From NCBI GenBank assembly GCA_023663345.1, contig JAMPHR010000001.1, positions 95,945-159,944 on the forward strand: a DNA stretch of 64,000 nucleotides. Reading direction: 5' to 3'. Below, piece after piece: positions 35,101 through 48,985 of this stretch. Source of the DNA: Paenibacillus sp. Its GTDB lineage: Bacteria; Bacteroidota; Bacteroidia; Bacteroidales; Muribaculaceae. The notes beneath the pieces were generated by a model. That model worked only from the letters and a program-made list of their open reading frames with translations, searched no databases and was not told the DNA's origin. The position numbers and the translations under genes are program-made. Every line of letters starts with the position of its first letter. Position 1 is the stretch's first letter.

Positions 35101-36921
35101 ATGAGTCTTCATAGAAATCACCTCATTGCAGCTTGCATCGTGCTGTCGGGCCTCACGTCGTGCTACGACCTCAACGGCCTGGGTTCGGATCCTTATTCGT
35201 TGCCCAACAATATCGTGACCAAACCTCAGAAACCCTCTGATCCTACGGGTGAGTATGGCGACATCGACATATCGTATGAGGTTACCGACCCCGATGCGCT
35301 CGACCAGATAAAGATCGACCTGGCTGTGGCACCCTCCACGTTCCGCAACTTACTGTATGAGGGATACTACAATGACTATCAGATAACCACCAACCTCACC
35401 CACGACATATACGCGGGATATACAGGCAACAACAACATTAACTTCGTAGGCTCGGCTCCCGACTACGGATATGCCGACGACTGGAGCTCATCGCGGTGGA
35501 GACACTTCTATGTGGACCGTTGCAAGGAATATGCCTCATTGCTTAGGGCCTTCAAGTTCAGCCCCAACCCCGAACGGTACGTGAACCAATACCACATCAC
35601 GCGCATATATTTCGTATTTCTTGCCTTGGCCAACACCGATACCTACGGCGACATGCCGTTCAAGGTGTATGCTTCGGTACAGACTCCCGAGACCAATAAT
35701 GTACCTTACGACACACAGCAGGAGGTGTACGACGGCATGTTCCGCATGTTGCGCCAGGCTGTGGAGACGATAAATCCCAACGATGCCTCGCAATACACTA
35801 TCGACAACGATGACATCTGCTATCACGGCGATGCGCTGAAATGGCTGAGATTTGCCAACACTCTGCGCCTGCGTCTTGCCTGCCGGATATCCAACATTGA
35901 CCCTGACCGCGCCCGTCAGGAAGCTCAGGACGCTCTTTCCGACAAATGGGGACTCATGGAGAGCAATGCCGACAATATGACCACCATACCCCGCTATGCG
36001 CCTGTCGAGGCAGGAGGTATAAATGACGGAGGCAATGAGAATGTGCTGGCCATGTGCTCGGTGATGTACAACGGTGACTGCGTGATGGGATGGGATCTCG
36101 AGAAAGCTTACCGTAATCAGTCGGCCGGAGGCGGACGCTATATTGTATATGACGAGGATGGCAACACCATGGAAAAAGTCATCGATCCCCGTTGCCTCGT
36201 GAGCTGGTACCGTGCCGGAATGACCGACGGATTGCTCTCCTCGGGCGAAGAAAACATGAGAGAAGATTTCCGAGGCTGTCCCAAGGGTTTCGACAGTCCC
36301 ACCATGCTTGCGCCCAACCAGTTCTCGCTCACACGCACGGCCAAAGATCCGGCAAAATCCAAGCTTCACGACCCGAAATCGTGGTTCAATTGCGCCGAAC
36401 CATCAGTGTGGATGAGCTATTCCGAAAGCCTTTTCCTGAAAGCCGAGGCCGCTCTCAGAGGATGGTGTGGAGGCAGTCCGGAAAGTTTCTTCCGCCGTGG
36501 AGTGGATGCCTCGCTCGCCTATTATGAGATACCCCAGGATGAAAGGGAGGACTATATCAACGGCCTCTATGTGCTTAACGACGGGACATTCTCGTCGGGC
36601 GACAATGAAAAGATTCTCGAAGCGATAATTACACAGAAGTGGCTTGCGGTATTTCCAAATGGCAATGAGGGTTGGGCCGAATTTCGCCGGACCGATTATC
36701 CGGCACTCATGACCCCGCTAAACAATACATCGGGCAATGATGTTCCGGCCGGACATTTCATAAAACGTCTTCTGTATCCCTACTCGGAAAACTCCAATAA
36801 GGCTTTCACGGGCAATCCCGATCTTCAGGCATCCAATTCTCAGGGAATACGCCTGTGGTGGGACGTAGCCGATACAAATGATGATTCCGGCAACCGTCTC
36901 AAGCCTAATAATTTCAGGTGA
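35101..36921 (+). CDS. SusD/RagB-family glycan-binding lipoprotein
   Basis: This 606-residue surface lipoprotein forms the lid of the SusC transporter and binds its oligosaccharide. The lipoprotein signal ends at LTSC (Cys near residue 21). Conserved SusD segments include ITRIYFVFLALANTDTYGDM, KWLRFANTLRLRLACRI, the SESLFLKAEAALRGW helix and the QKWLAVFPNGNEGWAEFRRT segment near the C terminus. It begins 1 base after susC and is the last plus-strand gene before the long mannan-type locus. Confidence 0.95.
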   Translation: MSLHRNHLIAACIVLSGLTSCYDLNGLGSDPYSLPNNIVTKPQKPSDPTGEYGDIDISYEVTDPDALDQIKIDLAVAPSTFRNLLYEGYYNDYQITTNLTHDIYAGYTGNNNINFVGSAPDYGYADDWSSSRWRHFYVDRCKEYASLLRAFKFSPNPERYVNQYHITRIYFVFLALANTDTYGDMPFKVYASVQTPETNNVPYDTQQEVYDGMFRMLRQAVETINPNDASQYTIDNDDICYHGDALKWLRFANTLRLRLACRISNIDPDRARQEAQDALSDKWGLMESNADNMTTIPRYAPVEAGGINDGGNENVLAMCSVMYNGDCVMGWDLEKAYRNQSAGGGRYIVYDEDGNTMEKVIDPRCLVSWYRAGMTDGLLSSGEENMREDFRGCPKGFDSPTMLAPNQFSLTRTAKDPAKSKLHDPKSWFNCAEPSVWMSYSESLFLKAEAALRGWCGGSPESFFRRGVDASLAYYEIPQDEREDYINGLYVLNDGTFSSGDNEKILEAIITQKWLAVFPNGNEGWAEFRRTDYPALMTPLNNTSGNDVPAGHFIKRLLYPYSENSNKAFTGNPDLQASNSQGIRLWWDVADTNDDSGNRLKPNNFR

Positions 36922-37066: not shown

Positions 37067-37098
37067 AAGAGGCTGTGTCTATTTTGACACAGCCTCTT
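37067..37098 (+). terminator. Terminator-like hairpin downstream of the SusD gene
   Basis: A 13-bp perfect stem (AAGAGGCTGTGTC at 37067-37079 with 37086-37098) has loop TATTTT. It is very stable but is not followed by a T-run. It lies 145 bases past the SusD stop and just before structured repeat copy 1. Confidence 0.5.
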
Positions 37099-37109
37099 CA
37101 GTCCAGTAA

Positions 37110-37237
37110 GCCACGAAGTGGCGATGTAATTGAAGCCCCACCACGAACGGCAAGCGAGTCGCCCGCCAGGGCGTAATCGCTTGGCCGTGAGGCGTGGGGA
37201 AAAGATGTACATGCACGCATGGGCATCGAAGATGTCC
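37110..37237 (+). repeat. Structured intergenic repeat, copy 1
   Basis: This is one of two diverged copies in the same orientation (the other at 47521-47652). Helix A is GCCAC-GAA-GTGGC (37110-37122), followed by the shared string GATGTAATT. Helix B is CCCCAC (37136-37141) with GTGGGG (37194-37199). Inside it, helix C is ACGGC-AAGCGA (37147-37157) with TCGCTT-GCCGT (37177-37188, one bulge). Helix D is CGCCC/GGGCG (37160-37173). Helix E is GGGCATC-GAA-GATGTCC (37221-37237). Compared with copy 2, helices A, B and E carry paired base changes that keep the pairing. Confidence 0.75.
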
Positions 37238-37293
37238 TATAGGAAATACCCATTACGGCAATGAGGATAGGTCCGGAATATGATATTAAAAAA

Positions 37294-37325
37294 CTCAGGG
37301 CATCCCGGTGAAGGGGTGCCCTGAG
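37294..37325 (-). terminator. Terminator for the minus-strand glycan locus
   Basis: A 9-bp stem (CTCAGGGCA/TGCCCTGAG) extended by CCC/GGG after a bulge spans 37294-37325. On the minus strand it is followed by TTTTTTAAT. It lies about 270 bases past the stop of the Ig-like lipoprotein gene. Confidence 0.7.
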
Positions 37326-37532
37326 TGGCTTGACAAAACGGGAAATTGTAACTATTGTTTCGAGGGGAGCCGAGGCTCCGAAAGATGGAACTCTTGCTTT
37401 ATTACAGCTCTAATAGATACCGGATGAAAGCTTTTTTACTGCTCTGTCAAGTTTTGGGGTAAGTGGCTATGGATACTTATTAGGTATTAGGCCGTGGGAT
37501 AAAGCCACTTTTGGGAGAGGAGAGAGGCCCCG

Positions 37533-37567
37533 AACCGGTTGCCGGGAGAGAGTGACGGCAACCGGTT
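37533..37567 (-). terminator. Hairpin close to the end of the minus-strand glycan operon
   Basis: A 12-bp perfect stem (AACCGGTTGCCG at 37533-37544 with 37556-37567) with an 11-base loop lies 26 bases past the stop at 37594. There is no T-run on the minus strand. It may protect the 3' end, with termination at 37294. Confidence 0.5.
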
Positions 37568-37593
37568 ATAGGAGCCTTTACGTGAGTGGGGTA

Positions 37594-38619
37594 TTATTTG
37601 ATTTTTACAATCCAGCCACGGTTAATTACCTCATTGGCCATGTCTACGTCCCACCATATCACAATCTTGGCAGTGGCGTCATCCTTGATGACCTTAGCCT
37701 TGCCTTCGAGATTGTAGAGATCATAGCCGTAGTAGTACTTGAAGCGATAAGTACCGTTAACCTCCTCATTGAGAGCTGTACCCTCGGGGTAGATAATGTA
37801 GTGGCCACCGTAATCTGACCAACTGCTTCCATACCACCATCCGAAAGTATGTAGGTTGTCAGAGCCTGACTCATCTTTCCACGCTCCCCACGATTCATAA
37901 CGGAAATAGTAATGCTCGTTCTGTGAGAACTTTGAACTCTTGATATATACCTCATTTTTGGTCTTAGCCAACAGATTGCTGATATCAGAGTTCGTAAAGG
38001 CATCGAATGTAGCCGAAACTGTCACCTTGATTGATGCCGAGAGACCGGAACAATCCTTTACAGTCACAGTGGCAGTGTATTCATCCTTATCCGAAGTAGC
38101 AGTGAGGGACACCACGCCGGTTTCAGCATCAACTGTAGCATCAACCTTATCGTTGTCCGACTCTACAGTGTAATCGCCGTTGCCTAACACCACCGAGCAC
38201 TCTTTGCTTGTGGAGCTGAGTCCCCTGGGAGTCACTAAAGTGTACTCGCTATGGCTGAGTGTCATCTCATCGGTGGTGTACACCGATACTGTGAGCTGCT
38301 TGTACTGGTTAGCAGCATCGGAGACCACAATCTTCGCCACACCATTCTTGTAACCTTCTATATAGTACTGTCCATCTTCCCCGGTCACTACCTCGGCGAC
38401 ATCGGGATTTAGTGAATAGCCACGGTAGTCTCCTGCTCCGGTAGCCGCGGGAATAGCGATGCGGTTCTCAGCACCGATCTTTACCTTTGCGGTCTCGGCA
38501 TCAAACGATAGTTCGGGGGTGGGAGCCTCGATTATGGTATCGTCATCGTCACATGAGGTGAAGCCTGCCATTGCGAATGTGGCCACCATCATGCTCATGA
38601 AATAATATTTGATTTTCAT
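37594..38619 (-). CDS. Exported Ig-like lipoprotein of a glycan-utilisation locus
   Basis: The frame opens at 38655, but the ATG at 38619 places a lipoprotein signal (MKIKYYFMSMMVATFAMAGF, then TSC) at the N terminus, giving 341 residues. The signal is followed by Asp residues (CDDDD), similar to export signals of surface lipoproteins in Bacteroidetes. Two bacterial Ig-like (BIG2-type) domains follow, with repeated YSLNPDVAEVV and VESDNDKVDATVDAETGVVSL phrases. The C-terminal domain of about 130 residues is rich in Tyr and Trp (HYYFRYESWGAWKDES, FGWWYGSSWSDYGGHY), typical of carbohydrate-contacting surfaces. It is the last gene of the surface module. A surface glycan-binding role is likely but not shown; I do not recognise the C-terminal domain. 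Confidence 0.75.
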   Translation of the reverse strand: MKIKYYFMSMMVATFAMAGFTSCDDDDTIIEAPTPELSFDAETAKVKIGAENRIAIPAATGAGDYRGYSLNPDVAEVVTGEDGQYYIEGYKNGVAKIVVSDAANQYKQLTVSVYTTDEMTLSHSEYTLVTPRGLSSTSKECSVVLGNGDYTVESDNDKVDATVDAETGVVSLTATSDKDEYTATVTVKDCSGLSASIKVTVSATFDAFTNSDISNLLAKTKNEVYIKSSKFSQNEHYYFRYESWGAWKDESGSDNLHTFGWWYGSSWSDYGGHYIIYPEGTALNEEVNGTYRFKYYYGYDLYNLEGKAKVIKDDATAKIVIWWDVDMANEVINRGWIVKIK

Positions 38620-38648
38620 AATTGGTCTATTATAGCAGTTGGTGTTGA

Positions 38649-40067
38649 TTACCAATCCTTTTCATACTTGTGAGAATCGATCACTACCTCATCATCGTAG
38701 AATGCCTGAGCACAATTGCTCATAACATTGTCGTCGCGCCATGAGTGCTTGGTGGGATCCATAGCGAACACCATGTGACTTCCGTAACCGTTGTTGCGCA
38801 TACCTCTGAGCTGACTTACGGATGCTATGCCACGACCGAGGTTGAGCTCCTGGCTATAGAGACCCATGTTGCTCTTGGGCATACCGGGATAGTTACCTGA
38901 CATATCCCATGAGCCACCGTAATCGTGGAGACCAAAGTGGCAGAACTCTCCGGGCTGTACACCGTCGATCGCAACTGCACTGGAAGTCGGACCGTAGCAG
39001 TAAGCAATGTTCCAACGCTCGGGCTGCAGCTTCCAGAGCTCATACATGAGACGGGAGAATGCCTGGGCACCATTGCTCACGAAGCCGGGATAGTTGCCGG
39101 TGCTGCAATACTCGCAGTCGTAGAATATACCGTCGAGTTTATAAGCATCGCAGAGAGCCTTGAGCTCGAGGGCAAAGTAGCGGGCGGTCTCATCGGCAAG
39201 GTTGGCTACCGATGCGCGGTCATGGTTGCAGAGCAGACCCATGATCACCTTCATACCACGGTCCTGAAGAGGCTTGAGATACTTCTCGCGGTTGTCGAGC
39301 AGGTGCTGAACGTTGGGGTTGGCATTGAAGTACACACGGCCGGTCTCGTCGTTATAGTTGATGTTGCCGGCGAAGAGGATAACTGCATCCACCATGTACT
39401 TGCCACTCTTCTTGAGAGTGTAGCGGAGGTTGTTGAGGGGGTTGGTGTCATTGACCTCCATACAGGAGAAGATCTTTATGCCGTCTACCTCGTTACCGTT
39501 GGCATCAAGGACAGTCTTGAAGCAGTCCTGCAGACCGGTGAGGTCGCGCACAAAGATAATGCGTGTCTGAGAGTTGGAGGCAACCGACACACGGCTTGCA
39601 CCGGTGGAGATACGCACGGGCACGGCATAGGACACCTCGCTGTCGAGCGAACCGTCCGAGGTGATACCCACCGTCATGGGAGCTGACTGAGTGTTGCCGG
39701 CCTTGAGGGTGGCTGCACCATCGTTGGAGAACGATACCATGGACTCGGGCAGAGCCACGTGGGCAGTGCGGTTGGCACGGTTGTACTCGTCGAGCACGTC
39801 GGCATCGTAGGTGAAGTATAGGGTCATGTCATCGGCTGCGGGAGCAGTGGAGTTGACGAAAAGCTCGACGCCTGTGTCGCCACGGAACTCGAGGCTGGCA
39901 TTGGAAGTGTTACCGTTGGTGTCGGCCACGTAGATGAGGGTCTCACCCGATCCGGAGACTGAGGGAGTCTCGACGGTGCCGATGGTCAGATCCTCCTGGC
40001 AGGCGGTGACGGCCATAGCCGCCATGCCCATCAGAAACGAGTTTCTAATTATATTGTAGTATTTCAT
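38649..40067 (-). CDS. Surface GH18 endo-beta-N-acetylglucosaminidase with DUF1735 domain
   Basis: This 472-residue lipoprotein (lipobox TAC, Cys23) has an N-terminal DUF1735 domain (about 40-160) and a GH18 barrel (about 190-465). This is the layout of the B. thetaiotaomicron surface endoglycosidases that cut the chitobiose core of N-glycans. The GH18 acid motif is read as DGIFYDCE at 312-319. Asp317 and Glu319, the substrate-assisted pair, are present, whereas the first variable Asp of DxxDxDxE is Phe and the residue between the pair is Cys. It should release high-mannose oligosaccharide with one GlcNAc at the cell surface for import by SusCD. Its neighbours, a GH18-like binding protein and a LamG lipoprotein, fit the same locus type. 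Confidence 0.85.
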   Translation of the reverse strand: MKYYNIIRNSFLMGMAAMAVTACQEDLTIGTVETPSVSGSGETLIYVADTNGNTSNASLEFRGDTGVELFVNSTAPAADDMTLYFTYDADVLDEYNRANRTAHVALPESMVSFSNDGAATLKAGNTQSAPMTVGITSDGSLDSEVSYAVPVRISTGASRVSVASNSQTRIIFVRDLTGLQDCFKTVLDANGNEVDGIKIFSCMEVNDTNPLNNLRYTLKKSGKYMVDAVILFAGNINYNDETGRVYFNANPNVQHLLDNREKYLKPLQDRGMKVIMGLLCNHDRASVANLADETARYFALELKALCDAYKLDGIFYDCEYCSTGNYPGFVSNGAQAFSRLMYELWKLQPERWNIAYCYGPTSSAVAIDGVQPGEFCHFGLHDYGGSWDMSGNYPGMPKSNMGLYSQELNLGRGIASVSQLRGMRNNGYGSHMVFAMDPTKHSWRDDNVMSNCAQAFYDDEVVIDSHKYEKDW

Positions 40068-40087
40068 CGTTGATGCTTAATTTTAAA

Positions 40088-41239
40088 TTACTTTTCTTTC
40101 TCGGGAAGAGATACTGAAATCCAGGTGAGAGGATTGTGGGAAGTGAGGTCGTAACCGTTGGCGTAGTCGTGGATGAGGTTGCCCTGACCCTCGTTCATCT
40201 TCCAGTAGGCTACCAGACCGGGAGCATCGGGCTCAACGGTGTAGAAGTGGTTGCGCTCGTTGATTTCATCGGGAGTGAGAACTCGGTTCCACACACGGAA
40301 TTCCGACATCTTGCCCTGGAAATCGCGATCATCTGCGTAGGATCTGCCGATGAAGAAGTCGGAAGCGTTCCAGTTAACGCTACGACCGGTATTGGATTTC
40401 TGTGTGGCTCCCTTCTTCACGCCGTTGAAGTAAACGTTGACCTCACCGGTGGCGCTTTCCCATGTGAAGGTGAGGAATGTCCACTTGCCGGCATCAAACT
40501 TCCAAGCTGCATCGGTAGCGTTGGGGCTGGCAGCGAGCTGAAGCTGGTTGGGAGGAAGACCGGCATCACCGAGACGGAGCAGGAAAGATCCCTCGATACC
40601 GAGAAGAGTCTGGATAAGGTTGTCGAACGAGTCGGGGAACACGAGGCACTCTACAGTGATCTCTCTGAGACCCGAAAGCTGGGTGGCGTTGCCGGGGTTG
40701 ACAAACTCAAGATAGTTCTTGGTAACATCAGTAACCACATTGATAAGGGCGGCACCACGGAACACATAGTAAGTGGTAGCTGTGGAATTAACCACAGGAA
40801 CAGTGGAGTTGACCACCGACACGGGGAGCACATACACGAAATCGGTGTTGAGTTCGGCAAGACCCTTGAACTCGATCAACACGCGGGTCGACTCGATGGC
40901 TCCCGACTCTACCACAGCCACGGGATCGGCGATGGAGTAATTGTCGGCAGGGAGAATGATGGCCTCGGCTGCGTAGGCTGCGTTGTACTCTTCGACTTTG
41001 CTGTCGACCACGCCGTAGGTCACATATACCGGCTCAGCCTGGGGCTGGGCAATCCTCACGCCGAGGGTGCGGGTCATTTCATCGGCCTTACCGTCGAGGA
41101 CATTGATGTTGACAAAGTCGGTGGCGGTGTCGAAGACCATGTTGTTGTCGGCTACGTTCTCGTAATCATCCTGGCAGGATGTCACCGAAGCGGCGGCAAG
41201 CAGCATAGCCACAGAAGTGATATATTTTGTAAATTTCAT
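40088..41239 (-). CDS. DUF1735 plus LamG-type surface glycan-binding lipoprotein
   Basis: The ATG at 41239 is preferred over 41251 because it opens directly into the lipoprotein signal (lipobox SVTSC). The 383-residue product has a DUF1735 domain (about 30-155) and a C-terminal concanavalin A-like LamG domain (about 180-380) with WTFLTFTWESATGEVNVYFNG and FQGKMSEFRVWNRVLTPDEI. These beta-sandwich domains bind glycans or glycoproteins. It lies between the GH18 enzyme and the GH18-like binder, as surface glycan-binding proteins do in N-glycan loci. Binding specificity is not visible. Confidence 0.82.
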   Translation of the reverse strand: MKFTKYITSVAMLLAAASVTSCQDDYENVADNNMVFDTATDFVNINVLDGKADEMTRTLGVRIAQPQAEPVYVTYGVVDSKVEEYNAAYAAEAIILPADNYSIADPVAVVESGAIESTRVLIEFKGLAELNTDFVYVLPVSVVNSTVPVVNSTATTYYVFRGAALINVVTDVTKNYLEFVNPGNATQLSGLREITVECLVFPDSFDNLIQTLLGIEGSFLLRLGDAGLPPNQLQLAASPNATDAAWKFDAGKWTFLTFTWESATGEVNVYFNGVKKGATQKSNTGRSVNWNASDFFIGRSYADDRDFQGKMSEFRVWNRVLTPDEINERNHFYTVEPDAPGLVAYWKMNEGQGNLIHDYANGYDLTSHNPLTWISVSLPEKEK

Positions 41240-41262
41240 TGTTACAGTCACTTTTTAAAGAA

Positions 41263-42414
41263 TTACTGAATGCTCGGGTTGACAGTCTGGATGAGATCGC
41301 GGAGATTGCGGAAGTTGTCGGCGGGAGCGGAGAAGTAGTCGCGCTGGATATTGTAGACACCTACAGCTGCAATCTTGGACGAGGAGGCAAACTTGGTGAG
41401 GGCGTTGATGGCGAGAGAGCCGTCGGTGAGGTATCCGGTCTTGTCATCGGCAGGATTGCCGGTGACGGGGAACACTGATACCATGCCGAGACGCTCGGCG
41501 GGTACGCCCTGGGTCATTGCCTGGGTGTAGTAGAAATCAAACTGGTCACCGTTGGTGGCATCGAGTCCCTGACGGATGAAGATGGTGCGGAACTCGTCGA
41601 GCAGGTCTAGACGGGTCACGTTCTGGGGGTATCCGAGGAAATCGTAGCTGAGACCGGGGTTACGCTTGTGCCAGTCGGAAGCGGCTCCGAGGAACACTGC
41701 CTGCTGCATGTTGTACTCGGCGAGCTGGGCAGGGGTCATGTGGGAAGAGGACTTGCCGTTGAAGGCAAACATCACTCCGTCGAGACCATTCTTCTTGGCA
41801 TAGCTGAGCTGGATGGTGAGGTTTTCGAGCACATAGTCGTTGAACTCGGGATCCACGATGGCGTCGAGCTTGGCCTGAAGCTCGGCCTTGGCGGCCTCAT
41901 ACTCGGCTTTCACAGCCTCGGAATCCTTGTTCTCGTTAGCCTCATAGTCGGCGGTGAGCTTGGCAATCTCGCCCTCAACGGCAGTGCGGTCAGCGGCATT
42001 GAGCTCGCAGAGGGTGGTGTGATCAGCCTTGAACGCATCGAAGTCGATGGTGTAGATCACCTCCATGCCCTTCTCGGCACGCACCTTGGCCATGTCCTCG
42101 AGGGTGACGGGATGTATCTCGGCAGGATTGTCGAGTACTACCACGTCGGTACTGTCGGGGAGAGCGGTGAGGCGGTAGGCCTGGCTAGTGGGACCTGAAA
42201 CGGGGATGTTCATCCACGCGTACACCTTGCGGTGGTCCGATGCGCGGTAAGCGCGCAGATTGGCGCAATACTCGGCATAGGTGGGAGTCTTGTCGACGGT
42301 GATATAGTCGAGGTCGATCGACTCGGGCTCGGTCCAGTCGTCGCACGAGGTGAGTACTGATCCCGCCATGCCCACAACCATTGCCGAAGCTATATATTTG
42401 ATGTGTCTGTTCAT
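41263..42414 (-). CDS. Catalytically dead GH18-like surface glycan-binding lipoprotein
   Basis: This 383-residue lipoprotein (VLTSC, Cys24) has a GH18-like fold, but the acid motif is DGVMFAFN (212-219). Ala217 and Asn219 replace the Asp and Glu needed for hydrolysis. It should therefore bind, not cut, its glycan. A charged alpha-helical stretch of about 48 residues (about 141-188), rich in Ala, Glu and Lys and with coiled-coil character, interrupts the barrel. GH18-like binders of this kind sit beside the active endoglycosidase in Bacteroides N-glycan loci. It lies between the SusD gene and the LamG lipoprotein gene. Confidence 0.82.
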   Translation of the reverse strand: MNRHIKYIASAMVVGMAGSVLTSCDDWTEPESIDLDYITVDKTPTYAEYCANLRAYRASDHRKVYAWMNIPVSGPTSQAYRLTALPDSTDVVVLDNPAEIHPVTLEDMAKVRAEKGMEVIYTIDFDAFKADHTTLCELNAADRTAVEGEIAKLTADYEANENKDSEAVKAEYEAAKAELQAKLDAIVDPEFNDYVLENLTIQLSYAKKNGLDGVMFAFNGKSSSHMTPAQLAEYNMQQAVFLGAASDWHKRNPGLSYDFLGYPQNVTRLDLLDEFRTIFIRQGLDATNGDQFDFYYTQAMTQGVPAERLGMVSVFPVTGNPADDKTGYLTDGSLAINALTKFASSSKIAAVGVYNIQRDYFSAPADNFRNLRDLIQTVNPSIQ

Positions 42415-42451
42415 GTTGTTATTTCCTAATCTGTATTATATGGTTAAGAGA

Positions 42452-44068
42452 TTAAAGTCCGGGCTTGCAGTCCCACCACATGGGGGTGGCGAGGTTGTCG
42501 GGACCCTTGAGGTAGTCGTTGACAGCCTTCTGCACGTTCTCGAGGTTGTTGGTGTACTCGGCTGCAGGATACGGGAGACGGCGGGGACCGATGTTGACAT
42601 TCACCACGCTGCTCGCGTTCTTGGCCACGGGGATGAAATCGGGGTAACCGGTGCGGCGGTAGTCAGCCCATGCCTCGTGACCGAGAGTCCAGTTGGCGAT
42701 CCACTTCTGGGTGATGATCTTCTGCTGCTTCTGCTCGGGAGTGAGTGACTCGTCCCACTTGATGGTGACGGGATCGAGAGTACCGTTCCACGAGTTGAGC
42801 TGCATGGGGTCATAATAGGCTGCGGGCACCGAGGTAGCGTCAGCTACGTAGGAATCGTAAGCGTCGGCTACGCCATAGTTCTCAAACGAGAGGCGGATAC
42901 CATTGTTGTAGAATGACTCGGCTGTGCCACCCATATTCCAGTTGAACACTCCTGCACCCTCGGCACGGAGGAATGAAACCTCGGCTGCATTCTGCCACAG
43001 GGCAGGGCTGCTTGCTGAGTAGATGATGCCAGAGTAGCTGATGCTCCACTGATCGTTGAAGGTCTGCCATCCGCGACGTATGCCCACATAGTCTATGGGG
43101 TTGCCGTTGAGATCCTTGAGCACGGGACCGTTGGCCGAGTTGGCCTTGCTCACGTACTTGGGAAGACGGGGGTCGTTGTAGCCCTTGAGGTAGCAGATGA
43201 TCTCGGCGGAGGGGCGTGAGTCATTGGCGTTCCAGAAGATGGCGGTGTTCATGGGGTTGGTGGCGGTGGCATAGTTCTTCCAAGAGGCGTTCTGGTCGTT
43301 AGACTCGATCACACCTCCGTTGGCGGGATTCACTGCCTCCTCGGCCTTCTGCTTGGCCAGGGTAGGATCAGCATAAACTATGCGCATTGCCAGGCGGAGC
43401 TGGAGAGAGTTGGCGAAGCGTATCCAGTTGGCCTTCTCGCCAGAATATACATTGTCGGCAATGGAGTTGAGCATGTCAGTATCGTCGCTGAGAGCGTTGA
43501 GAAGTGTCTGACGAGCATCGGCCAACTCTGCAAAGAAAGCGTTGTAGATATCCTGCTGTGAATCGTATGGGGTCTTGATCACACCGTCGGCTCCGATCTC
43601 GGAGAAGGGGATGGGTCCGTAAGTATCGGTGATACGGCTCATGGAGAGCACCCTCACGATCTTGGCTACAGCCAGGGGCACGGTCTTGCCCTGGTTCTCG
43701 CAGTAGGCCTCTACTGTCGAGTAGTTGGTGTAGAGAGTGGGGATGAACTGGTCGGCCTTCATGAGCACTGCACACCAGTTGTCGGGGGCATTGTTATTGC
43801 CGAATGTGCCATTCCAATCGTGTCCTTCCGTGAAATAGCCACCGAGAGTGCCACCGAGCAGACAGTCGGTAAACTGGGTCTGGTTGGGGTCGGAAGAGAT
43901 CACCGAGCTGAATATGTTGTTCATCGATGATGCCAGGAGGTATCCGTCGGCGGTGAGGTCACCGGGCTGGAACTGGTTGGAGTTGATATCGAGATAGTCG
44001 CCCGTGCAAGCGGTTGCAGCTATCGCGAGGGCACCCCCGGCCATTATCTTGTTGAATATTTTTTTCAT
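42452..44068 (-). CDS. SusD-like lipoprotein of the N-glycan locus
   Basis: This 538-residue protein is the SusD-type lid for the SusC encoded 15 bases upstream. The lipoprotein signal ends at ATAC (Cys near 21). SusD segments include VRVLSMSRITDTYGPIPFSE, NWIRFANSLQLRLAMRIVY, EVSFLRAEGAGVFNW and QKWIANWTLGHEAWADYRRT. The helical TPR-like frame of the family covers most of it. The substrate is expected to be an oligosaccharide released by the GH18 enzyme. Confidence 0.95.
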   Translation of the reverse strand: MKKIFNKIMAGGALAIAATACTGDYLDINSNQFQPGDLTADGYLLASSMNNIFSSVISSDPNQTQFTDCLLGGTLGGYFTEGHDWNGTFGNNNAPDNWCAVLMKADQFIPTLYTNYSTVEAYCENQGKTVPLAVAKIVRVLSMSRITDTYGPIPFSEIGADGVIKTPYDSQQDIYNAFFAELADARQTLLNALSDDTDMLNSIADNVYSGEKANWIRFANSLQLRLAMRIVYADPTLAKQKAEEAVNPANGGVIESNDQNASWKNYATATNPMNTAIFWNANDSRPSAEIICYLKGYNDPRLPKYVSKANSANGPVLKDLNGNPIDYVGIRRGWQTFNDQWSISYSGIIYSASSPALWQNAAEVSFLRAEGAGVFNWNMGGTAESFYNNGIRLSFENYGVADAYDSYVADATSVPAAYYDPMQLNSWNGTLDPVTIKWDESLTPEQKQQKIITQKWIANWTLGHEAWADYRRTGYPDFIPVAKNASSVVNVNIGPRRLPYPAAEYTNNLENVQKAVNDYLKGPDNLATPMWWDCKPGL

Positions 44069-44083
44069 TTGTTTGGGCTTGGA

Positions 44084-47000
44084 TTAGAAGTTGAAGTTAA
44101 CATTGAAGCCGAAGTTGCGGAGCGAAGGCATCATGAAGTTGTCGATACCCTGGAAGTAGTTTCCGGCCGATGCCACTGATTCGGGATCGTAGGGAGCCTT
44201 GTTGTAGATCATCCAGAGGTTGCGTCCAACGAATGAGAACTTGATGTCGCATACGTTACCCACGAGCTTGCGGGGGAGGAGGTAGCTTACAGTTGCTTCC
44301 TGGAGGCGTACATTGGTAGCCGAATAGGTGTAGTACTGGGGAACTGTCTCACCGGCAGCCACAGTGTTATACCACTGCTCGGGGTTTACGCGGTCACCAC
44401 CGTTGAGGATCATACCACCGAGGTCGCGGAGGTCGCCTGAAGCCTGGGATACGCCAAACTGGTCAAGGACGGCCTGGGTGCGCGAGTAAACGATACCACC
44501 GAGACGGGCCGAGAGCATGAAGCTGGCCGAGAGGTTCTTGTAACGGAACGAGTTGTTCCATGCGAGGTTGCCCTTGGGGAGTACGCTACCGAGCTTGATG
44601 GGGCTGTCGGCCACCGAAGTGGTGAACACGTTGCCGTCCTCGGATACGTAGATGTTGCCCTTGGAGTCGGTCTGCAGGTTGACCATCGAGTAGAGGTCGC
44701 CCATTGTGCCGCCCTCGCGGAGAATGAAGCGGGTTGCACCCACCTGGGTGTCGGTCATCACGAGTTGGTCGATGGTAAGCTTCTCGCCGGTAATGGGGTT
44801 GTAGGCGTCACGGCCAAGTTCGAGGATCTTGTTCTTGTTGAACGAGTAGGTGAGGTTGGTGCTCCATGAGAAGTCCTTCCAGGTGTTGTCATAACCGAGG
44901 GCGAATTCCATACCCCAGTTGCGCACGTTACCGGTCTGGATATATATCTTGGAATACTTACCTGCAGCGATGCCGGGGTTGAAGGTCTGGTTGTGGGTGT
45001 CAGCCTGATACCAGGTGGCATCGAAGGTGAGGTTGTTGAACATGCGGAAGTTCATACCAACTTCCCATGACTTTGTACGCTCGGGCTTGAGGTTCTCGAC
45101 AGGATACTGGGTAGTGAGTGACCACTTGCCGTCCTTCCACTCGTAACGGGGATTGGCGATGTAGCGGGGGAATGCTGTACCCACATCAGCCCAAGAGGCA
45201 CGGATCTTCCAGAACGAGAGATACTGCGAGGGGATGTCGATGCCGGCGTCGGCAAGCATTTGGGTCATGAGCACCGATACACCCACCGAGGGATAGAAGA
45301 ATGATGAGGTCTTGGACTTGGGACCGGCGAGAGCCGAGGGCCAGTCGTTACGGCCTGTGAGGGTGAGGTAGTAGGTGCCACGGTATCCGAGGTCGGCGCT
45401 TGCGTAGAGCGACTGGGTCTGCTCGTGCCAGCCCTCGGCGAGCTTGATCACATTACGGTTAGAAATATTGTTAATGGTGAAGAAGTTGGTGAGTCCTGCG
45501 GTCTCCTCCTCGTAACGGCCCTGGCCGTCGGGGATACCACCGCTTATGTTGATTGACTCATAGCGCATGTCGGAGATAGATCCACCGAAGTTGGCCTGGA
45601 GGTTGAAGTCGGCACCGAGATCCTTGTTGAAGCTTGCGAGGAAGTCGGCATAGATCTGCTTCTCCTTATAGTTGGCCTCGCCGTAGTATCCGCGGTTGGA
45701 GCTTTCGGTGAGGGTGGTGTTGGTGCTTGCATAGCGCTTGTCGGTCGACTTAGTGTAAGAATTGTCGATGCGCACGCGTCCGCTCAGTGTGAGGTAAGGA
45801 AGCACCTTGTACGAGAGCTGGGCACCGAGCATGTAGCGGTCCTTGTTGTTCTCGCGGAGGTTACGGTAGTTGACCCAGTAGGGGTTCTGCACGTCGAGGC
45901 TGTATGAACCGTATTTCCAGTTCTGCTCTGAGATACCACGGTCGGGGTTGTAGATCTCATACATGCGCACGAGGCTCCAATCGTTGCCACGGGGGAAGAG
46001 GTAGGCGCCCACGATGGGGTTCATGTAGGTACCTTGGTTCACCATGTTGCGGTCGGTCTGATAGATGTAGCTTGCATTGAGATCAAGGGTCATCTTATCG
46101 TCAAGGAAGTTGGTGGTATTCCTGATCGAGAAGTTATAACGGTCGTAGCGGTCGTTGGGGACGATACCCTTGGAGTTGACGGCAGCGGCCGAAGCATAGG
46201 TCTGGCTCTTGTCAGTACCGGTCGAGAAAGTCACCGAGTTGGTGGCTACGAAACCGGTCTGGAGATAATCGCTGGCAATGTCATAGCCATAGTTGTTGTA
46301 GGGAGTCATGCGGGCACCCCAGCTGTAGGAGCTGTTGAGGTCCATAACGCCGTTCTGGCCTGCGCCATAGGTATTCTGGAAACGGGGGAGGATCCACGCG
46401 CGGTTCCACTCGAGGTTGGAGCCCACAGTGATGTTGGTCTTGCCGGCCTTACCCTTCTTGGTGGTGATCACGATGGCACCGTTGGCTGCATCTGATCCGT
46501 AAAGAGCGGCAGCGGCCGCACCGGTAAGTACCGAGAGAGACTCGATGTCGTCGGGGTTGATATCTGCGATAGGCTCGGTGGCACCTGCCGAAGCGAATGC
46601 ACCTGCACCGCCGGTGTCACGCGCACTGCGCATGGGCATACCGTCTACTACATAAAGAGCGTTGGACGACTGCATGATTGACTTGGTACCGCGCATCACC
46701 ACTTTGGAGATACCGCCTGTACCCGATGAGGAGGCGTTGATGGTGACACCTGCAACCTTGCCTGCGAGCGAGTTGACAAAGTTGGCGTCCTTGTTGGTGA
46801 TCAGGTCCTCGCCCTTGACCTGCTGAACGTTGTAGGAAAGTGATTTCTGCTCACGCTTGATACCGAGAGCGGTCACCACTACCTCGTCGAGTGTCTGTGA
46901 GTCCTCGGTCATTACGACATTGAGGGGAGTCACTCCGGTAAATTTTATTTCCTGGGGGTGATAGCCTATGCACGAGAATTTCAGCACGCCACCCTCGGGT

Positions 47001-47188
47001 ACATTGATGGAGTATTCACCATCAATGTTAGTTTGAGTTCCCATCGATGCGCCGTTAACGATCACAGCGACACCGATCAGAGGCTCTCCGCTGTTATCGG
47101 TCACCGTGCCCGTAACCTTAACGTCGGCAAATGCCAGCACGGGGAGCATCATGAGAGCGAATAACAGACTTGTTACCTTAGCCTTCAT
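44084..47188 (-). CDS. SusC-like TonB-dependent transporter of the N-glycan locus
   Basis: This 1034-residue outer-membrane importer has a signal peptide (about 1-21), a carboxypeptidase-regulatory-like domain (about 22-95) with VTGTVTDNSGEPLIGVAVIV, a plug with MRGTKSIMQSSNALYVVDGM and VLTGAAAAALYGSDAANGAI, and the barrel. Unlike the SusC at 31638 it has no STN domain, so it does not signal through a FecR partner. It is the first gene of the six-gene surface module that ends at 37594. Its upstream region (47189-47794) holds structured repeat copy 2 but no clear promoter box. Confidence 0.95.
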   Translation of the reverse strand: MKAKVTSLLFALMMLPVLAFADVKVTGTVTDNSGEPLIGVAVIVNGASMGTQTNIDGEYSINVPEGGVLKFSCIGYHPQEIKFTGVTPLNVVMTEDSQTLDEVVVTALGIKREQKSLSYNVQQVKGEDLITNKDANFVNSLAGKVAGVTINASSSGTGGISKVVMRGTKSIMQSSNALYVVDGMPMRSARDTGGAGAFASAGATEPIADINPDDIESLSVLTGAAAAALYGSDAANGAIVITTKKGKAGKTNITVGSNLEWNRAWILPRFQNTYGAGQNGVMDLNSSYSWGARMTPYNNYGYDIASDYLQTGFVATNSVTFSTGTDKSQTYASAAAVNSKGIVPNDRYDRYNFSIRNTTNFLDDKMTLDLNASYIYQTDRNMVNQGTYMNPIVGAYLFPRGNDWSLVRMYEIYNPDRGISEQNWKYGSYSLDVQNPYWVNYRNLRENNKDRYMLGAQLSYKVLPYLTLSGRVRIDNSYTKSTDKRYASTNTTLTESSNRGYYGEANYKEKQIYADFLASFNKDLGADFNLQANFGGSISDMRYESINISGGIPDGQGRYEEETAGLTNFFTINNISNRNVIKLAEGWHEQTQSLYASADLGYRGTYYLTLTGRNDWPSALAGPKSKTSSFFYPSVGVSVLMTQMLADAGIDIPSQYLSFWKIRASWADVGTAFPRYIANPRYEWKDGKWSLTTQYPVENLKPERTKSWEVGMNFRMFNNLTFDATWYQADTHNQTFNPGIAAGKYSKIYIQTGNVRNWGMEFALGYDNTWKDFSWSTNLTYSFNKNKILELGRDAYNPITGEKLTIDQLVMTDTQVGATRFILREGGTMGDLYSMVNLQTDSKGNIYVSEDGNVFTTSVADSPIKLGSVLPKGNLAWNNSFRYKNLSASFMLSARLGGIVYSRTQAVLDQFGVSQASGDLRDLGGMILNGGDRVNPEQWYNTVAAGETVPQYYTYSATNVRLQEATVSYLLPRKLVGNVCDIKFSFVGRNLWMIYNKAPYDPESVASAGNYFQGIDNFMMPSLRNFGFNVNFNF

Positions 47189-47413
47189 AAATTGTTTAAA
47201 TTGGTTTAGTAATGGTAGTTTATAAATGATTAGTAATTGTTGGTTGAGTATCAGTAATGTAGATAGCTGATTGGCTTTAAGCCAGCGAGTTACGTATTCC
47301 TGTTCATGTCATGGTAATAAGATGTCTTTTCATGGATCAATATGGTTATTAGAATTGCTGTAGACATTAAAAACGTGAGAAGGAAAAACTACTGAGCCGG
47401 GTTATGTTAAACA

Positions 47414-47432
47414 AGGTTAATTTTATTAACCT
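47414..47432. promoter_or_regulatory. Inverted repeat upstream of the N-glycan SusC
   Basis: AGGTTAA-TTTTA-TTAACCT is a 7-bp inverted repeat with a 5-base centre, 226-244 bases before the SusC start. It could be an operator, but no binding protein can be named. Confidence 0.3.
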
Positions 47433-47520
47433 CCCGCACGCCACTAACCACGAGACTCTGAACCGGCAATGTTATCTATCAGTTCAACTTCACTAATTCT
47501 CCACAGGTCATTCCCTCTTA

Positions 47521-47652
47521 GCCGTGAAACGGCGATGTAATTATAGCACCACCACGACCGGGTTATGCAAATCGCCCGGCAGGGCAGATTTGCACGGCTC
47601 GGGAGGCGTGGTGTCAACAAAATATGTACCAATCCGGGCGTCGAAGACGTCC
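47521..47652 (+). repeat. Structured intergenic repeat, copy 2
   Basis: This is the second copy of the element at 37110-37237. Helix A is GCCGT-GAA-ACGGC (47521-47533), followed by GATGTAATT (47534-47542). Helix B is CACCAC (47547-47552) with GTGGTG (47608-47613). Helix C is TGCAAAT/ATTTGCA (47566-47572 with 47588-47594), extended by CCGGG/CTCGG. Helix D is GCCC-GGCA-GGGC (47574-47585). Helix E is GGGCGTC-GAA-GACGTCC (47636-47652), followed by TATA in both copies. Confidence 0.75.
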
Positions 47653-47719
47653 TATAATCGACACGGATCATCCCCGGGCGTGATGATTCGGGTGCTGGCA
47701 TAAGAGTGGGATAAAAACA

Positions 47720-47753
47720 GCAGAGGGATCCCCATTTAAGGAGATCCCTCTGC
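47720..47753 (-). terminator. Terminator after the PIG-L gene
   Basis: An 11-bp perfect stem (GCAGAGGGATC at 47720-47730 with 47743-47753) with a 12-base loop is followed on the minus strand by CTGTTTTTATCC. It lies 42 bases past the stop of the PIG-L gene. Confidence 0.8.
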
Positions 47754-47794
47754 GATCTATGCTAAAAATGTATTCACTATGTGCTACACAATCC

Positions 47795-48985
47795 TCAGAA
47801 TTTATAGTTTACGAATGCCTCCATAGCCTCATATGCGGTGAGGCCAAGGGCATCATAGAGAGCGGCGGTAGCCTTGTTGCGGTCCTCGGCACGTTGCCAG
47901 AACAAGCGCTCGTCATCGCCGAGATATGGAGCCGATTCCATCTGGGAGGAATGTTTGAGGATAGCCATACGCTTCTGACGTAGCTCCTCGGGGCTCATGG
48001 GCACGCACATCTCTATGTCCTCGATAGCCCATTCATCCCAGGCACCTCGGTACATCCATATACGGCAGTCGCGGAGCCATTCGTCCCCCTCGCTCTTGGC
48101 CACATCCACGGCGGCAAACACTGCATCGGTACACTTGCGGTGAGTGCCATGAGGATCGGCCAAGTCGGCTGCCACGTAAATCTGATGAGGCTTCACCTTG
48201 CGGAGCAGGTTGAGCACAATGTTGACATCGGTCTCGGTCATGGGCAGTTTCTCCACAGTACCGCTCTCATAGAACGGCAGGTCGAGGAAGAATACCCGGT
48301 TGAGGGGTATACCGTTGAATGTGCAAGCCGTGCGGGCCTCACCTCGGCGTATCAGTCCCTTGATCTTGAGTACATCGGCCGAGTCGGGCTGGCCGGGACG
48401 CTTATTTCTTAGAAACTTCTTAACCTCGGCATATTTCGAGGGGATCAGCGCATGGGGATCGAGGTCGGCCTCGTCGCCGAATATCTGGTTGAAACCGTTG
48501 ATAAAGTGCATGAAGCGTGTTACCTCCTCATCGCCCACGGCAATATTGCCTGAAGTCTCGTAGGCAATATACACCTCATGTCCCTGCTTCACAAGGCGCG
48601 AGATGGTACCGCCCATTGAGATCACATCATCATCGGGATGAGGCGAGAACACAAGTATGCGCTTCGGGTAAGGGAGCTCGCGTGCGGGGCGGTTGAAATT
48701 GCCGGTGCCGGGCTTTCCTCCGGGCCATCCGGTGATGGTGCGCTGGAGAGCGTCAAACACTTTTATGTTCAGCTCGTAGGCCGAGCCGTTGAATTCAGCC
48801 AGGCGTTCCAGTCCGGCATCCTTGTAGTCACGGCTGGTGAGCTTGAGTATAGGTTTGCCAAGCTTACGGGAGAGCCATATCACTGCCGAGAGAACGAGTT
48901 TGTCGGTCCACAGTGAGGTGTCGTCGGGTAGCTTTCCGTCGAAAGGCTTGGAGAATTTCAGATTGTCAGTCAGATGAAGATTCAT
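47795..48985 (-). CDS. PIG-L (LmbE-like) deacetylase, free-standing C-terminal half of the Bacteroides NagB-PIG-L protein
   Basis: This 396-residue protein contains a PIG-L/LmbE domain with the zinc motif HPDDD (116-120) in FSPHPDDDVISMGG and the later DPHGTHRKCTDAVFAA segment. From memory, Bacteroides has a longer protein annotated as glucosamine-6-phosphate deaminase (about 660 residues) with a NagB-like N-terminal half. This gene corresponds closely to its second half, including the linker around TDKLVLSAVIWLSRKLGKPI. Here the NagB-like half is missing, and a separate canonical nagB gene ends 3 bases upstream. PIG-L enzymes deacetylate GlcNAc-containing molecules, so it may deacetylate GlcNAc or GlcNAc-6-phosphate and feed NagB, in place of NagA. 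That function is inferred from context. Confidence 0.8.
   Translation of the reverse strand: MNLHLTDNLKFSKPFDGKLPDDTSLWTDKLVLSAVIWLSRKLGKPILKLTSRDYKDAGLERLAEFNGSAYELNIKVFDALQRTITGWPGGKPGTGNFNRPARELPYPKRILVFSPHPDDDVISMGGTISRLVKQGHEVYIAYETSGNIAVGDEEVTRFMHFINGFNQIFGDEADLDPHALIPSKYAEVKKFLRNKRPGQPDSADVLKIKGLIRRGEARTACTFNGIPLNRVFFLDLPFYESGTVEKLPMTETDVNIVLNLLRKVKPHQIYVAADLADPHGTHRKCTDAVFAAVDVAKSEGDEWLRDCRIWMYRGAWDEWAIEDIEMCVPMSPEELRQKRMAILKHSSQMESAPYLGDDERLFWQRAEDRNKATAALYDALGLTAYEAMEAFVNYKF

Follow-up and report, generated by a model that had tools for sequence, protein, structure and literature searches.

A dispersed three-hairpin repeat of Bacteroidales, probably a REP-like mobile element served by an IS200-related Y1 transposase

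The DNA analysed here is a window of 64,000 nucleotides from a Muribaculaceae genome (assembly GCA_023663345.1, contig JAMPHR010000001.1, positions 95,945 to 159,944 of the forward strand), in which two copies of a repeat composed of three hairpins lie between genes. This repeat is probably a non-autonomous mobile DNA element resembling the repetitive extragenic palindromic (REP) sequences, with, as cognate enzyme, an IS200-related HUH/Y1 protein that carries the motif Y---Q--HH (of the TnpA-Y1 subclass 1.2 type). Its copies are dispersed, possess covarying hairpins and often pair head-on; in some related genomes, such pairs flank a gene for a transposase of this kind.

A unit consists, in order, of hairpin A with a GAA loop, a short linker that often ends in an RTAG foot, a long central hairpin, a second linker and hairpin E, the loop of which is mostly GAA across the family. 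The central hairpin varies in sequence and in length, and units range from 93 nt (genome G004) to about 160 nt (G020). The original prediction, made from the two window copies alone, described copies of the same orientation at 37110-37237 and 47521-47652, with GAA triloops, paired changes in helices A, B and E, and the conserved loop or linker strings GATGTAATT, TCGAAGA and GTCCTATA. The sequence confirms this description: both copies are on the + strand, all helices are at the places described, the changes between the copies are indeed paired, and the strings are present in both. The features are the following.

37106..37243, + strand: copy 1 of the three-hairpin repeat (covariance model score 123.4 bits)
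37110-37114 (GCCAC) with 37118-37122 (GTGGC), + strand: copy 1 hairpin A, 5-bp stem, loop GAA (sequence and fold)
37132..37135, + strand: copy 1 foot tetranucleotide GAAG, before the central hairpin (sequence)
37136..37199, + strand: copy 1 central long hairpin, helices B, C and D (fold)
37136-37141 (CCCCAC) with 37194-37199 (GTGGGG), + strand: opening of the copy 1 central hairpin
37221-37227 (GGGCATC) with 37231-37237 (GATGTCC), + strand: copy 1 hairpin E, 7-bp stem, G.T wobble at pair 3, loop GAA
47517..47658, + strand: copy 2 of the three-hairpin repeat (covariance model score 152.7 bits)
47521-47525 (GCCGT) with 47529-47533 (ACGGC), + strand: copy 2 hairpin A, loop GAA (sequence and fold)
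47543..47546, + strand: copy 2 foot tetranucleotide ATAG (sequence)
47547..47613, + strand: copy 2 central long hairpin (fold)
47547-47552 (CACCAC) with 47608-47613 (GTGGTG), + strand: opening of the copy 2 central hairpin
47636-47642 (GGGCGTC) with 47646-47652 (GACGTCC), + strand: copy 2 hairpin E, 7-bp stem, G.T wobble, loop GAA

Folded as RNA, the + strand gives z scores of -5.5 for copy 1 and -6.0 for copy 2, none of 200 shuffles being equally stable in either case. The - strand folds less strongly (z = -3.3 and -3.1; 0 and 1 of the 200 shuffles, respectively, reach the same stability).

The paired changes had been taken as a sign of selection for structure. Two copies are insufficient for such a claim, which is upheld by the wider copy set. 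In a MAFFT alignment of 40 copies from the window's own genome, two-sided changes are found in 15 of 33 pairs, and the covariation score is 0.256, as against 0.096 ± 0.007 for shuffled and at most 0.050 for slid controls. Among 77 matches from relatives, in an alignment made to the covariance model and hence biased toward it, two-sided changes affect 28 of 33 pairs and the score is 0.315, as against 0.091 after shuffling. These counts are of sequences and not of independent events. Covariation, for which a statistical check had been proposed with the original prediction, is far above the shuffled and slid controls in the own genome and in relatives alike. In hairpin E, pair 5 occurs as A-T, G-C, C-G and T-A among the 77 matches. 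Of the 110 copies (out of 117) in which pair 3 could be scored, 108 have a G.T wobble there. The retention of this wobble while its neighbours covary indicates that the + strand is the one that is folded, as RNA or as single-stranded DNA. In the REP of E. coli, too, certain mismatches in the stem are conserved, and its transposase contacts one such base (PMC8266576). The foot preceding the central hairpin reads ATAG in 13, GTAG in 11 and GAAG in 13 of the 40 own-genome copies (3 other or unread), and ATAG in 43 and GTAG in 18 of the 77 matches from relatives (16 other or unread), which is close to the GT[AG]G foot of REPs. The two-sided changes support the proposal that the fold is under constraint. 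An explanation of the covariation at the DNA level can also be offered: the two arms of a hairpin can undergo correction against each other. Moreover, secondary structures of single-stranded DNA are recognised by Y1 transposases (PMC6006769).

The family is abundant in the genome that carries the window (G000; 2.64 Mb, 86.6% complete). The covariance model was built from the 40 near-full own-genome copies, which match it by construction; the places left out of that alignment are mostly truncated, near contig ends, or fragments. A search of the genome with this model, likewise proposed with the original prediction, gave 57 matches at E<=0.001, both window copies included, of which 55 have E<1e-15 and 2 are weak. 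A blastn search with copy 2 (40 of 56 candidates scored) hit 49 places, one of which is copy 2 itself; 44 of the hits exceed 75 bp, and copy 1 is not among the 49. When the model was applied to 61 genomes, with the best 52 candidates per genome scored and stricter filters, so that negatives are not proof of absence, 12 genomes were positive, with at least 174 matches in all: at least 52 in G000, 30 in G005, 30 in G035, 17 in G004, 16 in G020, 12 in G009 and 8 in G017, and 1-3 in each of five others. The positives comprise 11 of the 27 genomes of the window's genus and one of ten from other genera of the family (G035); under these strict filters, no match was obtained in the 24 genomes that represent other families of the order. 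In G000, several copies are located no more than about 700 bases from a contig end (contigs C1, C5, C8, C11, C15, C16 and C20). Since the repeat may break the assembly at such ends, the true copy number may be higher.

The genomic setting was examined for the 40 own-genome copies, 9 of which have too little flank. By a rough open reading frame (ORF) rule, 23 of the remaining 31 are intergenic and 8 overlap ORFs of at least 100 aa. Both neighbours could be called for 22 of the intergenic copies, the surrounding ORFs being convergent in 10 cases, co-directional in 11 and divergent in 1. Relative to co-directional neighbours the repeat shows no preferred orientation (6 same, 5 opposite).

Copies that lie close together are nearly always inverted. 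In a count that covers 150 listed matches out of the 174, 34 of the 37 neighbouring copies within 800 bp are inverted, 20 with hairpins E facing each other and 14 with hairpins A facing; five additional own-genome matches outside this count would, by position, add 1-2 inverted pairs and one tandem pair. In G020, the spacers of four E-E dimers measure 55-58 nt. That single units are gained or lost is shown by a paralogous gene family of G035, in which a copy occupies one place in three members (L115, L119 and L122) and is missing at the matching place in a fourth (L117); this comparison is silent as to mechanism.

A multi-copy ORF family lies in or beside some of the inverted pairs (L118, L116 and L084 in the own genome, contig C17; L115, L117 and L119-L124 in G035). 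It has 8 matches in G035 and 2 in the own genome, plus one inside the pair at L084. At L118 two of its copies form a palindrome, and in G035 it carries repeat copies in an open frame. It was considered as the mobilising gene and rejected, since it has no Pfam match and is present in only 2 of the 14 genomes searched.

In some relatives, the repeat is found around a transposase gene. An IS200-like HUH/Y1 gene is enclosed by two inverted copies, whose E hairpins adjoin it, in G020 (L078/L125), G017 (L080/L126), G035 (L065/L129) and a fourth contig (L128); in G015 (L081/L127) a pair lies just downstream of the Y1 gene. A TnpA profile search of 84,980 genomes, made via two short peptide patterns and thereby confined to close relatives, returned 11 loci, all of which have Y---Q--HH. 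The repeat is present at five of them, as a flanking inverted pair in four and as a downstream pair in one. Four of these five contigs are labelled as Bacteroides sp., Porphyromonadaceae or Bacteroidales metagenome-assembled genomes, the fifth as Pseudoflavonifractor. The proteins P0007-P0009 match PF01797 with E values of 4e-22 to 9e-20, score 55.3-65 bits with the NCBIfam IS200 model NF033573 (cut-off 55) and, together with the protein of L081, have the HUH motif DH[VI]H plus Y---Q--HH. A profile of four of these Y1 proteins, the one used for the search of the 84,980 genomes, matches the solved IS608 transposase (best E 1.2e-8). The enzymes are present in low copy number, Y1 matches of any class amounting to 1 in G017, 1 in G020, 4 in G015 and 4 in G035.

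Flanking repeats turn out to be a frequent property of Y---Q--HH genes. The 41 Y1 loci collected comprise 24 Y---Q--HH loci and 3 other Y1 loci that were tested, and 14 that were not counted because they were duplicates (L111, L114), were near a contig end (L100, L103, L132) or had no gene found by the script (9 loci). Long flanking inverted repeats at E<1e-10 were found at 14 of the 24 Y---Q--HH genes, compared with none of 43 window genes used as controls, all of which come from one genome; the figures are 19 of 24 versus 0 of 43 at E<1e-6 and 20 of 24 versus 1 of 43 at E<1e-3. For the three other Y1 genes the numbers are 0, 0 and 1 at the same thresholds. Four of the 14 flanked genes carry the three-hairpin family, and 10 have no match to it. 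By eye, several flanks of unrelated sequence (for example L096, L106, L112 and L133) follow the same plan of a small hairpin, a long one, often CCCC...GGGG, and another small one. Three of these unrelated flank repeats were tested and all are dispersed, with 12 matches in G027, 29 in G003 and 77 in G061, partial matches included, of which 5, 6 and 4, respectively, are on the contig of the gene itself; the other genomes searched have few or none of them (0-2 matches). Of 20 places taken from G061, the 19 without a transposase gene align as dimers with a conserved E, spacer, E' arrangement, outside which A-like hairpins stand in variable number.

These observations suggest the following pathway. 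When the + strand becomes single-stranded, as may happen at a replication fork, TnpA would recognise the folded hairpins A and E, its tyrosine would cleave beside them, and the unit would be moved or copied to new intergenic sites. The enzyme would act on solitary copies as well as on those that adjoin its gene, and the mobile form would often be an E-to-E inverted dimer. Copies presumably outlast loss of the transposase, which may apply to the own genome.

Several results weigh against this reading. Searches for a Y1 gene gave none in the own genome assembly (86.6% complete) and none in G004 or G005, both 99% complete, which hold at least 17 and at least 30 copies, respectively. More generally, 7 of the 12 repeat-positive genomes have no Y1 match, and the presence of one does not go with that of the repeat (5 of 12 positive versus 32 of 49 negative genomes). 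Six of the 11 TnpA-profile loci have no match to the three-hairpin family, and P0007-P0009 reach only 24.5, 19.0 and 24.6 bits with the NCBIfam model of REP-associated transposases, NF047646 (cut-off 80). In the flank test, whose controls have the single origin mentioned above, 10 of the 24 genes miss the E<1e-10 threshold and 4 miss even E<1e-3; L127 fails because both of its copies lie downstream of the gene. As to movement itself, the spacers of near-constant length in the G020 and G017 dimers have no clear common sequence, and the paralogue comparison in G035 revealed neither clean ends nor a target duplication. An empty-site comparison at both window copies, of 14 kb of window DNA with 27 genomes of the genus, the own one among them, offered no suitable near relative: beyond repeat copies and short stretches of the receptor gene, it recovered only the gene adjacent to copy 2, in 2 genomes at 70-71% identity. 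Repeats without a Y1 gene could be accounted for by loss of the gene after spread, and REPtrons are deleted in many E. coli strains (PMC3733652).

The original prediction had left the choice between an RNA and a structured mobile repeat. The mobile half of that alternative has gained ground from dispersal, inverted pairing, association with a Y1 gene and the presence or absence of a unit among paralogues; the RNA half has found no support. According to the latter, the repeat would be transcribed into a structured RNA, either a small RNA or an element of mRNA tails (a stabiliser, for example), and its copies would have spread by duplication, covariation reflecting RNA function. The strength of the covariation and the greater stability of the + strand fold are in keeping with this idea, as are the 10 convergent and 11 co-directional settings among 31 copies, which may place many copies in mRNA tails. 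An RNA gene would not, however, be expected to form head-on inverted pairs or to flank a transposase gene, the central hairpin is free to change in sequence and length, and there is no strand preference with respect to co-directional genes (6 versus 5). The comparison with Rfam, also proposed at the outset, gave no match at the gathering score for the window and 14 related loci; at E up to 10, the interval 47400-47780 has three matches, none of them on the repeat. I consider an RNA improbable.

No likelier is a compact insertion sequence (IS) of the IS200/IS605 type, in which A and E would be the left-end and right-end hairpins of a 140-nt unit, a miniature derivative of the IS. The end hairpins of IS608 have the same orientation and alike loops. 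A and E similarly share their orientation and GAA loops within one unit, and TnpA is IS200-like, at or above the NCBIfam cut-off. Where copies flank the gene, however, the two hairpins on either side of it are E and E' of an inverted pair and not A and E, and enzymes of the Y---Q--HH subclass are characterised as low in copy number and lacking IS properties (PMC6006769). Slightly less probable still is that the repeats are elements similar to miniature inverted-repeat transposable elements, moved by another, unrelated transposase, the proximity of a Y1 gene being accidental. The seven positive genomes devoid of a Y1 gene and the multi-copy ORF family in or beside some inverted pairs would suit that possibility. 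Against it stand the inverted repeats at 14 of 24 Y---Q--HH genes, 10 of them with sequences that have no match to the three-hairpin family, and the occurrence of the three-hairpin family itself at a Y1 gene in five contigs. As for a plasmid or phage origin, which was rejected, the core of copy 2 has no blastn match in a plasmid or a phage collection.

If the repeat is taken as a mobile element with a Y---Q--HH enzyme, a wider proposal suggests itself, to which I incline with less assurance: each Y---Q--HH Y1 protein would have its own dispersed family of three-hairpin inverted pairs and represent a separate, IS200-derived REPtron lineage, the window repeats being a family left without its enzyme. 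The substrates of such a lineage would be several times larger than the 20-40 nt REPs and more structured. Bacterial genomes commonly contain REPs and their domesticated transposases. For the Y1 class of Bacteroidetes and Cyanobacteria, for which I found no recognised DNA substrate in PMC6006769, there is now a candidate one. Its covarying hairpins, almost invariant wobble and flanked gene make binding, cleavage and the choice of strand accessible to tests on oligonucleotides. In addition, a conspicuous covarying repeat that could pass for a new RNA gene receives an explanation, and the covariance model can serve to annotate such repeats in Bacteroidales genomes.

The surroundings of the copies deserve a brief description. 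The neighbours of copy 1 are convergent: a SusD-like gene has its end at 36921, and an ORF on the minus strand has its end at 37594. Both neighbours of copy 2 are on the minus strand, the PIG-L-like one at 47795-48985 and the TonB-receptor-like one at 44084-47188. Strong inverted repeats at 37067-37098, 37294-37325 and 47720-47753 adjoin the two copies and, by eye, resemble ordinary transcription terminators. Elsewhere in the own genome, extra A-like units stand upstream of many copies, and many share at least 120 nt 3' of hairpin E, of the form TCCCCGCG...CTCTGGTCTAAA...CTATACT (for example L013, L014 and L020); at some copies another common stretch then follows, such intergenic regions being mosaics of several repeats. 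REP-like sequences of the GTAG type (GTAGGG..GCGCAC or GTAGAGACGCACG) occur near or around three-hairpin elements at L115, L117, L121 and L122 of G035 and at L198-L216 of G061, where two REP-like systems may coexist.

A search of the open-access literature for such three-hairpin repeats found no description beyond PMC6006769, PMC3733652 and PMC8266576, and it is with the systems treated there that the repeat is best compared. TnpA-Y1 subclass 1.2, as characterised by Quentin et al. 2018 (PMC6006769), has the motif Y---Q--HH, is low in copy number, is found mostly in Cyanobacteria and Bacteroidetes, and generally lacks the typical IS200 terminal secondary structures. The enzymes described here resemble it in their Y---Q--HH and HUH motifs, their size of about 145 aa, their few copies per genome and their Bacteroidales hosts; they differ in that repeats were found with them, whereas I found no cognate repeat named in that account of the subclass. 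With REPs, REPINs and REPtrons the family shares dispersed intergenic palindromes, often in inverted pairs, that flank a Y1 gene, as well as an RTAG-like foot at a hairpin, a conserved stem irregularity and persistence without the gene (PMC3733652, PMC8266576). Known REPs are, however, palindromes of 20-40 nt, typically tagged GT[AG]G or CGTC, as opposed to units of 93-160 nt with three hairpins. The foot of the central hairpin reads GTAG in 11 of 40 own-genome copies and in 18 of 77 matches from relatives. The CGTC-tagged REPs were rejected as a match, since their description does not fit: stems of 8-9 bp that begin with A/T pairs, loops of 4-5 nt and a CCA tail (PMC3733652). The TnpA-REP transposases, or RAYTs, have the class 2 motif Y---NP, in contrast to the class 1 Y---Q--HH of the enzyme considered here.

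TIRtrons and their TIRYT enzymes are similar in that a Y1 gene lies within long inverted repeats, some of which form dispersed families (Di Nocera et al. 2013, PMC3733652). The 26 TIRYT examples in PMC6006769 nevertheless belong to subclasses 2.1, 2.2 and 2.5, none to 1.2, and the tyrosine motif found here is not of class 2 even though long flanking inverted repeats are present. Subclass 2.6, or RAYT group 5, also occurs in Bacteroidetes, and beside its genes stand "atypical secondary structures" that have further copies in the genome (PMC6006769), but its YIH[QN]NP and NH[LIV]H (HUH) motifs and its length of about 179 aa do not fit P0007-P0009. The IS200/IS605 elements, such as IS608 and ISDra2, have a related transposase and hairpins near their ends. 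In these elements a mobile gene lies between two end hairpins of the same orientation, and terminal inverted repeats are lacking. Here, by contrast, the gene lies between inverted copies, and solitary units are dispersed. Judged by these comparisons, the three-hairpin repeats and their Y---Q--HH enzymes most likely constitute a system that works like REP and REPIN but departs from what defines them in the size of its unit and the class of its enzyme.

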